Below, piece after piece: positions 18,902-24,998 of a stretch of DNA of 64,000 nt. A program made the position numbers and the translations under genes. The notes beneath the pieces are model-generated. The model was not told the DNA's origin and made no database searches. It saw only the letters and a list, made by a program, of their open reading frames with translations. Source of the stretch: Methanothrix harundinacea 6Ac (GTDB lineage Archaea; Halobacteriota; Methanosarcinia; Methanotrichales; Methanotrichaceae); contig NC_017527.1 in assembly GCF_000235565.1 (NCBI RefSeq), positions 1,240,001 to 1,304,000 of the forward strand, written 5' to 3'. Position 1 is the first letter of the stretch. Each line of letters starts with the position of its first letter.

Positions 18902-18953
18902 CCCTCCCTTCGGATAAGCGATATATAACATCCCGACGACCTTAAGGTTGTCC

Positions 18954-19538
18954 ATGTACGCAATCATCGCCTGCGGCGTCTTCAAGGATGAGATCGAGGA
19001 GATAGCCGACGACCTCGGCTTCCCCGCGAGGATCCGGTACCTGGAGGCGGGGCTCCACGTCGACTTCGACGGCCTCGCCGAGGCCCTGAAGAGGGAGCTG
19101 GAGGATTGCCGAGGCTTCGATGGGATCGTCGTCGCCTTCGGCGAGTGCCACCCTAGGATCGCCGAGATCCTGGCCCCCTACAACGCCGTCCTCCTGCGGT
19201 GCCAGAACTGCATCGACGCCCTGATCACCAGAAAGAAGGTCGAGGAGATCGCAAAAAGGGGGCTTTACTTTTACCTATCGCCGGGGTGGGTCAAGGGCTG
19301 GAGGGATATGTTCGAGCGGATGAGCTGGAGCCGGGAGGAGGCTCGCTTCCAGCTCGCCCCCTTCAAGGGGGCGATATTCCTCGATACCCTCGGCAACGCT
19401 CAGGATTACGAGGAAGGGCTGATAGAATTTCTCGATTTCACCCTCTGCCCCTACGAGAAGATGCCCGTGGACCTCGCGCACTTCAGGGCTCTGATCCTGG
19501 AGGCAAAAGAGAGGTGTGACCTTGGACGAGGAGCTTGA
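18954..19538 (+). CDS. DUF1638 family protein
   Basis: 194 aa from ATG 18954 (MYAIIACGVFKDEIEEI); a TTG two codons upstream is possible. DUF1638 proteins are found in methanogens and some bacteria next to corrinoid/methyltransferase or redox genes; the function is unknown. Visible features are a Cys near the N-terminus (IACGVF), GECHPRIAEI, the Cys-containing LLRCQNCIDALI, and a C-terminal FTLCPYEKMP. Repeated cysteines suggest metal or redox chemistry. The 3' end overlaps the thioredoxin start, so the two are probably translationally coupled. Confidence 0.7.
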   Translation: MYAIIACGVFKDEIEEIADDLGFPARIRYLEAGLHVDFDGLAEALKRELEDCRGFDGIVVAFGECHPRIAEILAPYNAVLLRCQNCIDALITRKKVEEIAKRGLYFYLSPGWVKGWRDMFERMSWSREEARFQLAPFKGAIFLDTLGNAQDYEEGLIEFLDFTLCPYEKMPVDLAHFRALILEAKERCDLGRGA

Positions 19539-19923
19539 AAGGATACGGAGAAAGAAGCTCGAGGAGATGAAGAAGATGGCAAACGAACCAAAGGTGGACT
19601 ATCCCAACAGCCCCCTGAAGGTGACGGACGGGACCGTCGACGAAGTGATCGGCAGATATCCTCTCGTCATCGTGGACTGCTGGGCGGAGTGGTGCGGACC
19701 CTGCAGGATGGTCGGCCCGGTGATCGACGACCTAGCGAAGGAGATGGCCGGAAAGGTCGTCTTCGGGAAGCTGAACGTCGATGAGAACATGAAGACCTCC
19801 ACCAAGTACGGGATCATGGCGATACCGACGTTGCTCGTATTCAAGGACGGAAAGCTCATCGACCAGATGGTGGGGGCCTACCCCAAGAACACCCTCTCAA
19901 ACAAAATTCAGAAATATCTCTGA
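19516..19923 (+). CDS. trxA: Thioredoxin
   Basis: 135 aa from GTG 19516 (a TTG at 19522 is an alternative). A charged helix (EELERIRRKKLEEMKKM) precedes a full thioredoxin domain with the active site WAEWCGPCRMVGPVIDDLA and the cis-Pro loop GIMAIPTLLVFKDG. It reduces protein disulfides in the cytoplasm. The 23-bp overlap with the DUF1638 gene suggests the cysteine-rich DUF1638 protein could be a redox partner (inference). A T-rich stretch (gtttttgg, about 19952) after the stop may terminate transcription. Confidence 0.9.
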   Translation: MTLDEELERIRRKKLEEMKKMANEPKVDYPNSPLKVTDGTVDEVIGRYPLVIVDCWAEWCGPCRMVGPVIDDLAKEMAGKVVFGKLNVDENMKTSTKYGIMAIPTLLVFKDGKLIDQMVGAYPKNTLSNKIQKYL

Positions 19924-19968: not shown

Positions 19969-20493
19969 TCAGGCCCTGACCTTCGAGGGGATGAGAACGC
20001 CCGCCTTCTCCTGGGAGCCGATCTCCCGAAGGTCCTTGAGCCGGAAGTAGGCGTCCACCTGGTAGAGCGGCTTTGGATCTCTGCCGAGCTCTCTCGGGGC
20101 CTGGCCGACCTCCGACGGGACGGCGAAGGCCCCCTTCCTCCGGGCGGCGATCTCCTGGACCTCCTTTATCCTGAAGTAGGATGCGACGTCGTATAGGGGC
20201 TTCGCCTCTCTGGTGAGGACGTTAGGCTCCAGGCCCGTCTCCGACGGGACGATGAAGGTCCCCTTATCGCGGGCGGCGATCTCCCGAAGGTCCTTAATCC
20301 GGAAGTAGGCGTCGACCTGGTAGAGGGGCTTCGCCTCTCTGCTGAGATCGATCGGGTCGAGGGCGCGGTAGGCGACGGCGCCGAAGGTTGAAGCCTGGGG
20401 GGATCTTCCTGCCTCAGCAGCAGCGGGCAGGGCCAGGGCGAAGATCAGCAGCATGGCTGCCATCAGGGCGATATGGGAAATTCTCAGACTCAT
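19969..20493 (-). CDS. Exported protein with three tandem 'KPLYxVxxYFRIK' repeats
   Basis: 174 aa from ATG 20491-20493, which has GGAGG eight bases upstream; earlier starts in the frame lack one. A signal peptide (MSLRISHIALMAAMLLIFALA, cut near AAAEA) is followed by three repeats of about 43-52 residues, each with a Ser/Thr/Gly-Arg-[ED]-[AP]-KPLY-x-V-x-x-YFR-[IL]-K-[DE] core, an EIAA or EIGS helix and a [VI]PS[EK] end. I know no domain with this pattern. Regular hydrophobic/charged spacing suggests an extracellular repeat that binds something or self-assembles. A TATA box (AAATTTATATGC on the minus strand, 20527-20538) gives its own promoter. Confidence 0.7.
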   Translation of the reverse strand: MSLRISHIALMAAMLLIFALALPAAAEAGRSPQASTFGAVAYRALDPIDLSREAKPLYQVDAYFRIKDLREIAARDKGTFIVPSETGLEPNVLTREAKPLYDVASYFRIKEVQEIAARRKGAFAVPSEVGQAPRELGRDPKPLYQVDAYFRLKDLREIGSQEKAGVLIPSKVRA

Positions 20494-20526
20494 GATAATC
20501 CTCCTGGTTGTAATAGGTCGGATATG

Positions 20527-20538
20527 CATATAAATTTT
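20527..20538 (-). promoter_or_regulatory. TATA box for the three-repeat exported protein
   Basis: On the minus strand AAATTTATATGC lies about 35-45 nt before the ATG at 20493, which is the expected place for an archaeal TATA box and a short leader holding the GGAGG ribosome-binding site. Confidence 0.45.
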
Positions 20539-24029: not shown

Positions 24030-24325
24030 AAATCATTCCACCTCATTCCACCCATTTTATCCCATTTCGCCCTTCCCATCTCGGCCTCAAATCGTTCCAT
24101 CCCATTCCACATTCCATCCCGTTCCATTACATTCCAGATTCATCCCTTTCCATCCCGTTCCACATTCCATCCCATTCCACATTCCATTCCCGTTCCACAT
24201 TCCATTCCCGTTCCACATTCCATTCCCGTTCCACATTCCATTCCCGTTCCACATTCCATTCCCGTTCCACATTCCATTCCCGTTCCACATTCCATTCCCG
24301 TTCCACCCCATTCCATCCCGTTCCA
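24030..24325. repeat. Degenerate (CATTCC)n-like satellite between rli1 and the FKBP genes
   Basis: About 300 bp of T/C-rich sequence built almost entirely from variations of ATTCC/GTTCC pentamers (cattcca, gttccat, attccac). It contains no plausible gene; on the minus strand it is open in one frame only because the repeat unit is 18 bp, giving a meaningless Met-Trp-Asn-Gly-Asn-Gly peptide. It contains the perfect 18-bp array given separately. Confidence 0.85.
24179..24304. repeat. Perfect 18-bp tandem repeat, 7 copies
   Basis: The unit acattccattcccgttcc occurs seven times in a row without a single mismatch (24179-24196, then every 18 bp to 24304). Its perfection against the decayed flanking pentamer repeats implies recent expansion by slippage. 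It is too short-unit and has no spacers, so it is not a CRISPR. Confidence 0.95.
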
Positions 24326-24449: not shown

Positions 24450-24998
24450 ATGGAGAGGGCAAAGGCCGGGGACGCCGTCCGCGTCCATTACGCCGGGAGG
24501 CTCGAGGACGGGACGGTCTTCGACTCCTCCGCCGGAAAGGAGCCCCTGGAGTTCACCATCGGCGACGGGATGGTGATCCCGGGGTTTGAGGCGGCAGTGG
24601 TGGGGATGAGCCCCGGCGAGAGGAAGAGGGTGAAGATCCCCCCCGAGGAGGCGTACGGCCCCCGCCGCCAGGAGATGGTGATGGAGGTGGAGAGGAGGTG
24701 CATCCCGCAGGAGTTTGAGCCGGAGGTGGGGCAGATCCTCCAGATCGGCGGGTCCCGGGAGAGGATGCTCCAGGTGGCGGTCTCTGAGGTGACGGAGTCC
24801 TCCGTCTTCCTGGACGCAAACCACCCCCTGGCGGGCAAGCCCCTCCTCTTCGAGGTCGAGATGGTGGAGATCCTGGGGAGCAGAAGAGACGGCAAGGATG
24901 AGGGGACGGAGGAGACGCAGGAGAAACAGGAGAAACAGGAGAAGCAGGAGACGCAGGAGAAGCAGGAGATGGAGGAGATGGAGGAGATGAGAGGATGA
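24450..24998 (+). CDS. FKBP/SlyD-type peptidyl-prolyl isomerase with Gln/Glu/Lys tail
   Basis: 182 aa. Residues 1-145 are a SlyD-like [49 protein letters not shown] (flap and core), AYGPRR, an inserted chaperone (IF) domain (about 70-125), then [21 protein letters not shown]. The last 35 residues are low-complexity repeats of QEKQEK/QETQEK, probably an extended acidic-basic tail produced by codon slippage. It helps fold proteins in the cytoplasm. SD GGAG is upstream; the stop overlaps the next FKBP start (ATGA). Confidence 0.85.
   Translation: MERAKAGDAVRVHYAGRLEDGTVFDSSAGKEPLEFTIGDGMVIPGFEAAVVGMSPGERKRVKIPPEEAYGPRRQEMVMEVERRCIPQEFEPEVGQILQIGGSRERMLQVAVSEVTESSVFLDANHPLAGKPLLFEVEMVEILGSRRDGKDEGTEETQEKQEKQEKQETQEKQEMEEMEEMRG

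Follow-up and report, generated by a model that had tools for sequence, protein, structure and literature searches.

A probably exported repeat protein of Methanothrix harundinacea is one form of a repeat-protein family found here only in Methanotrichaceae

The DNA analysed here, referred to as the window, is a stretch of 64,000 nucleotides from Methanothrix harundinacea 6Ac (NC_017527.1, positions 1,240,001 to 1,304,000). It carries a short gene for a repeat protein that runs on the minus strand from an ATG at 20493 to a stop codon at 19969-19971 and encodes a product of 174 amino acids. The initial annotation had located a repeat-protein gene at 19969-20493 and these coordinates are correct, the strand being minus; the plus strand of the same interval contains stops and has no open frame. 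The features of the locus are the following.

18948-19538, plus strand: DUF1638 gene, also used to recognize the orthologous locus
19516-19923, plus strand: thioredoxin-like gene, convergent with the adjacent repeat gene and used to recognize the orthologous locus
19969-20493, minus strand (20493 to 19969): repeat gene of 174 codons and a stop, based on the open reading frame call, matches in the genus and dN/dS
19972-20103, minus strand: unit 3, residues 131-174, based on periodicity; least conserved unit in the genus
20104-20232, minus strand: unit 2, residues 88-130, based on the 43-aa/129-nt periodicity
20233-20361, minus strand: unit 1, residues 45-87, based on the 43-aa/129-nt periodicity
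20416-20493, minus strand: predicted signal peptide region, about residues 1-26, read from the sequence
20500-20505, minus strand: ribosome-binding site AGGAGG
20528-20534, minus strand: TATA-box-like TTTATAT

The repeat gene is a real coding gene under purifying selection. It is carried by all eight other genomes of the genus, among 60 relatives examined, with the copy in G003 partly masked by N; the seven full-length orthologues are 60-78% identical to the window protein, and dN/dS values of 0.17-0.44 were obtained for all 28 pairs of eight orthologues, counted with a simple Nei-Gojobori script. The protein changes faster than the products of the neighbouring genes, as its within-genus identity to the window is about 60-77%, compared with 82-93% for the thioredoxin and about 85-95% for the product of a phosphoribosyltransferase-type gene. 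The TATA-like stretch starts about 41 nt before the ATG, and the conservation upstream of the gene within the genus (AAAAATTTATAT in seven of eight members, AGGAGG in eight of eight) supports the earlier proposal that the gene has its own promoter. A scan for sigma-70 promoters gave no match, which is expected since the host is archaeal.

The N-terminus of the product reads as a Sec-type signal peptide of about 26 residues that ends in AAAEA, in line with the export that had been predicted. Behind it, the KPLY motif recurs at residues 55, 98 and 141, giving a period of exactly 43 residues, rather than the approximately 45 estimated previously, and three copies spaced by 129 nt at the DNA level; the phase in which the 43-residue units are drawn is a choice. 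The threefold repeat is far beyond chance, with a best self-diagonal score of 246, whereas 1000 shuffles gave at most 53. All three units of the window protein have the core KPLY...YFR[IL]K, as had been noted, but this core is not invariant across the eight full-length members of the genus, in which KPLY is kept in 8/8 for unit 1, 6/8 for unit 2 (where PLY is kept in 8/8) and 2/8 for unit 3, making the last the loosest of the three. Cysteine is absent from the mature part, whose computed pI is 9.3 and which has 6.1% Gly, 0.7% Asn and 4.1% Gln, and the window protein contains 4.7% Tyr and no N-glycosylation sequon.

Two further tandem arrays were observed in the window. Approximately 12.9 copies of an 18-bp unit, TTCCATTCCCGTTCCACA, occupy 24095-24325, where the minus strand is open as (NGMWNG)n, and the array sits between what we take to be an ABCE1-like gene and two FKBP-type genes. 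At 24910-24987, about 8.7 copies of a 9-bp unit lie within the presumed FKBP-type gene 24450-24998 and correspond to a C-terminal tail of the EEMEE/EKQEKQ type.

No known domain had been recognized in the protein, and profile searches agree: Pfam gave no match at E values up to 10, NCBIfam a single match under the model cut-off, and a profile search of the PDB a best match of 0.061 that was dismissed, so that a known intracellular domain, which had been named as evidence against export, did not appear in any of the three. Short Pfam matches of the protein P0002, including KH_BICC1, were below the cut-offs and were rejected as a repeat array meeting short stretches of the models, and a PDB search with P0002 gave no match. 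AlphaFold2 modelling of the window protein from a shallow alignment of eight sequences gave a mean pLDDT of 41.9, with the signal helix as the sole confidently modelled helix and about 34-43 per block outside it, and modelling of a 113-residue 12-mer array of another family member from a single sequence gave 37.0; at these alignment depths, neither model contained a strand or a stacking fold. The low pLDDT values are compatible with a flexible or disordered chain, but shallow alignments give the same result.

Relatives in other genera indicate that the window gene is one lineage's version, that of Methanocrinis/Methanothrix harundinacea, of a repeat-protein family found here only in Methanotrichaceae. 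These relatives have a signal peptide followed by back-to-back 12-residue units (KPTYDVxxYFxx), by super-repeats of 36 or 34 residues, or by two or three motifs only. The basic element of the family, which they share with the window protein, is not the 43-residue unit but a shorter motif, [KR]P-x-Y-[DN]-[VI]-x-x-[YF]-x-[RK]-x, about 12 residues long and repeated two to ten times; the window protein itself has the signal peptide and motifs of this type. The period is 43 in the window protein, 12 in G014, G015 and G020, 34 in G017 and 36 over 12 in G023, where the 36-residue super-repeat consists of three 12-mers and its 108-nt copies are 95-100% identical; an example of the back-to-back arrangement is the exported protein of G014, with KPTYDVQKYFHF-KPTYDVEQYFKF. 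In G023 the gene is on the minus strand near 392.4 kb. In 11 of 12 proteins the autocorrelation peaks, at 43, 36, 12/24/36 or 34 residues, were higher than in any of 300 shuffles; the protein that fell short is that of G033, a member of the main Methanothrix genus with two motifs only. We suggest that in the window's lineage a whole cassette, P-x-x-L-[GS]-x-x-x-KPLYxVxxYFRxK...VPS, was triplicated, whereas other genera multiplied the 12-residue motif alone. The family offers a clear case of a short conserved motif with a repeat period rebuilt genus by genus, and the window protein, instead of being a lone oddity, is one form of a rapidly remodelled family.

The link between the 43-aa and the 12-aa types was found at the level of profiles, which align over nearly their whole length with a probability of 99.8 and an E value of 4.2e-30, a figure that overstates their independence because the 43-aa-type profile includes one row from genus g5 and the g5 member is in both alignments. 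Single-sequence searches also connect the two types (E 0.0014 for G020 and 1e-13 for L052), and the bridging genus g5 resembles the window protein in having LxPIxLG at the N-terminus and VPSK at the C-terminus. Direct profile alignments are weak for the main Methanothrix genus, with only 13 columns, all in the signal peptide, aligned to the 12-aa type and 39 columns at a probability of 88.7 to the window type, and its membership therefore leans on the order of the motifs and on synteny. Family members in this genus (L035-L044, L055-L073) often have, after the signal peptide, an N-x-S/T-rich run, NATANITLNETQNAT, that looks like a target of heavy N-glycosylation.

A signal-type N-terminus was found in every intact member that was read, and twelve of twelve mature proteins have no cysteine, which led us to reject a redox connection with the adjacent thioredoxin. 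Their Tyr content ranges from 4.7 to 16.1%, the window protein lying far below the 12-aa-type members. The single N-terminal hydrophobic helix and the basic pI of the mature window protein could also describe a bitopic protein with an uncleaved helix, the outer part of which would bind an acidic surface glycan or lipid. We consider such a membrane-tethered form quite improbable, since most members read have typical cleavage-site residues (A-x-A) behind their hydrophobic segment and the charge is not strongly basic across genera (Lys+Arg 9.7-16.7%, Asp+Glu 6.5-14%).

The strict periodicity, with its alternating aromatic and charged residues, raises another alternative, a filament subunit whose repeats would form cross-beta or stacked-repeat fibres outside the cell as a minor part of the sheath, its plugs or surface filaments. 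Functional amyloids have imperfect repeats of 19-80 aa, and the available part of the same source describes the plug proteins as unclear and the plugs of Methanosaeta sheaths as not released by 5 M NaOH (PMC6242892); a Methanocrinis strain has thin surface filaments but no pilin genes, according to the accessible part of PMC10598746. A period that shifts between 12, 34, 36 and 43 residues within one family is, however, hard to fit to one stacked fold, main-Methanothrix members carry just two or three motifs, and strands are absent from both AlphaFold2 models, and we judge a filament subunit to be unlikely.

A member of the family was located in 45 of the 50 Methanotrichaceae genomes and in all 33 of those of high quality (completeness of at least 90% and contamination of at most 5%). 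Profile A1 matches 31 of the 50 and misses many main-Methanothrix members, so that 14 of the 45 were added through matches to the 12-mer profile or as a motif-bearing exported frame at the orthologous place. DUF1638 is present in 15 of the 19 genomes without an A1 match and in 13 of 13 others inspected at the thioredoxin-DUF1638 locus, and motif-bearing exported frames occur at this locus in many inspected genomes. The five genomes in which no intact gene was found (G060, G062, G063, G067 and G068) are all 56-87% complete. In G060 the gene at the usual place (L125:2658-2969) is frame-broken or truncated in the draft, which could be an assembly error.

Outside the family, a search with a repeat profile had been proposed by the initial annotation and, run with the family profiles, it found relatives only in Methanotrichaceae. 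The 12-mer profile A3 matched 28 of the 50 Methanotrichaceae genomes and nine of 392 genomes in a sample of the phylum, all nine Methanotrichaceae, although it does not reach the window's genus and could therefore miss distant members outside Methanotrichaceae too. Among 84,980 species scanned, 22 matches to the pattern were obtained and nine of these were confirmed; all nine come from records named Methanothrix, Methanocrinis, Methanosaeta, Methanotrichaceae or Methanosarcinales-MAG and fit Methanotrichaceae, in accordance with the Methanothrix-type host that had been surmised from the sequence. Three weak matches were rejected as chance: L002 in the window's own genome (E 0.134), presumably a binding-protein-like sequence, L015, which we take to be RecA/RadB-like, and L019, a short frame opposite what is presumably a ribosomal-protein-like gene.

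The genomic position of the gene is also widely kept. In 34 of 45 genomes, that of the window included, the repeat gene and the thioredoxin-DUF1638 pair are oriented towards each other; the other 11 are six genomes of genus g6, G015 and G016, where the distance is 3-4 kb, and G009, G065 and G066, where the parts are on different contigs. Of 28 genomes outside the window's genus and g6, which represent eight genera, 26 have a gene for an anchored exported protein (P0004-like) at most 1.5 kb upstream of the repeat gene and in the same orientation (25 by script and G031 from reading its frames); the gap is 0.8-1.1 kb in G014 and G015, with an intervening gene in G015. The anchored protein has 330-370 residues and a C-terminal hydrophobic anchor, and gave no match in Pfam or NCBIfam. 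This pairing hints at a function at the cell surface, and the repeat protein might be a dedicated partner of the anchored protein, such as a small secreted ligand or an assembly factor. The pair is, however, split in 15 of 43 genomes, as it is absent from the window's genus (0/9) and g6 (0/6), and likewise in G009 and G028; in the window's genome the anchored-protein gene is 288 kb away, at C2:1548475-1549503, although the window's genus retains both genes, apart, in nine of nine. The anchored protein (e.g. L107:2696-3754) was found in 46 of the 50 Methanotrichaceae genomes and in 71 of the 392 genomes of the phylum sample (13 Methanotrichaceae, 57 from other families of the class and one from elsewhere), and by this distribution it appears to be older and wider-spread than the repeat protein, which is absent from those other genomes. 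A dedicated partnership seems unlikely. In the window's genome the neighbour of the anchored-protein gene is an oligosaccharyltransferase gene (AglB/STT3), and in G022 it is an M50 protease gene.

Methanothrix and its relatives, which live in tubular sheaths, are among the major methanogens that use acetate. The initial annotation had suggested a repeat that stacks or binds a polymer at the cell surface, plausibly in the sheath. Of this proposal, the export signal, the repeats, the promoter, the host and the restriction to a family whose whole order carries sheath-forming proteins (PMC11576556) are supported, while stacking, polymer binding and a place in the sheath stay conjectural. We tentatively favour the view that the repeat protein is a secreted, cysteine-free, Tyr/Lys/Arg-rich protein of many motifs that may belong to the matrix of the cell surface or sheath. 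A conserved motif with variable spacing and number, the restriction to one lineage, fast change, an export signal and the lack of a confident fold are, in combination, typical of chains that work by numerous weak and equivalent contacts. The protein would be exported by Sec and, as it has neither a C-terminal anchor nor a cysteine, may be a polymer-like chain that is free or loosely retained in the zone of the membrane, S-layer and sheath. The working part would be the short motif of roughly 12 residues, repeated two to ten times. Its regularly spaced Tyr/Phe and Lys/Arg, with Asp, could form numerous weak interactions with the surface layer, with glycan or with other copies, so that the chain would serve the cell coat as a multivalent matrix or cross-linking protein. 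Selection would preserve the motif, the fact that it is repeated and the signal for export, and leave copy number and spacing free (12, 34, 36 or 43 residues by genus).

In a more specific and improbable form of this proposal, the protein would be a sheath or spacer-plug component specific to Methanotrichaceae, gluing the plug, S-layer and sheath hoops through exported Tyr/Lys linear motifs in essentially every member of the family and in nothing else. A predicted exported protein with a member in every good genome of the family and no match outside it in the genomes searched here is at least a concrete single-gene candidate for the sheath or plug. SH sheath-forming proteins occur in all Methanotrichales, and the available portion of that study states that the composition of the plug and the sheath assembly proteins could not be identified (PMC11576556); forming a sheath may also require accessory factors (PMC6242892, from the part available), and one Methanocrinis species forms filaments in a common sheath (PMC10598746, likewise in part).

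In the open literature searched, the repeat residue strings KPTYDV, KPLYDV and KPLYQV did not occur and no extracellular tandem-repeat family of Methanotrichaceae was described, and the literature on spacer plugs and on the secreted proteome of the species contained nothing on the repeat protein. Proteins of the mussel foot type are secreted flexible chains with Lys-Pro-Ser-Tyr repeats and a second aromatic residue. The common multiplicity of K-P-x-Y offers a possible analogy, with no homology claimed, for weak adhesion by Tyr and Lys, although mussel foot proteins are animal and hydroxylated tyrosine is unlikely in a strict anaerobe. CsgA, FapC and chaplins are likewise exported and have imperfect repeats comparable in length (19, 34 or 48, and 41 aa; PMC6242892, available part), but their repeats are G/N/Q-rich whereas those of the candidate are based on Y/K/R/D/P; the low Gly, Asn and Gln content of the mature window protein and the lack of a Pfam or NCBIfam family at cut-off set it apart from the curli/Fap type.

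MspA of Methanothrix thermoacetophila (ABK14853.1) is also lineage-restricted, exported and from the same family of archaea, and is possibly a secondary sheath component (available parts of PMC6242892 and PMC11576556); compared by description only, it has 60.9 kDa and two cysteines, whereas the mature repeat protein has about 16.5 kDa and none. A role in electron conduction has been proposed for MspA (PMC10470525); the same role was weighed for the aromatic repeats of the present protein and set aside. Surface proteins have been considered for electron uptake (PMC10470525, PMC12072023), none of them tied to the repeat gene in the portions of these papers available. The SH proteins of Methanothrix, Methanospirillum and ANME-1 are, like the repeat protein, exported proteins of sheathed archaea, and their core in AlphaFold2 models consists of two six-stranded, amyloid-like beta sheets (PMC11576556, available portion). 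Unlike the SH proteins, with their predicted two-sheet core and caps, the repeat protein is small and shows no such core in its low-confidence models, and whereas SH proteins are encoded in many copies, in gene clusters and also in other orders, it is mostly single-copy, with one own-genome match by protein and profile besides the chance match, and found here only in Methanotrichaceae.
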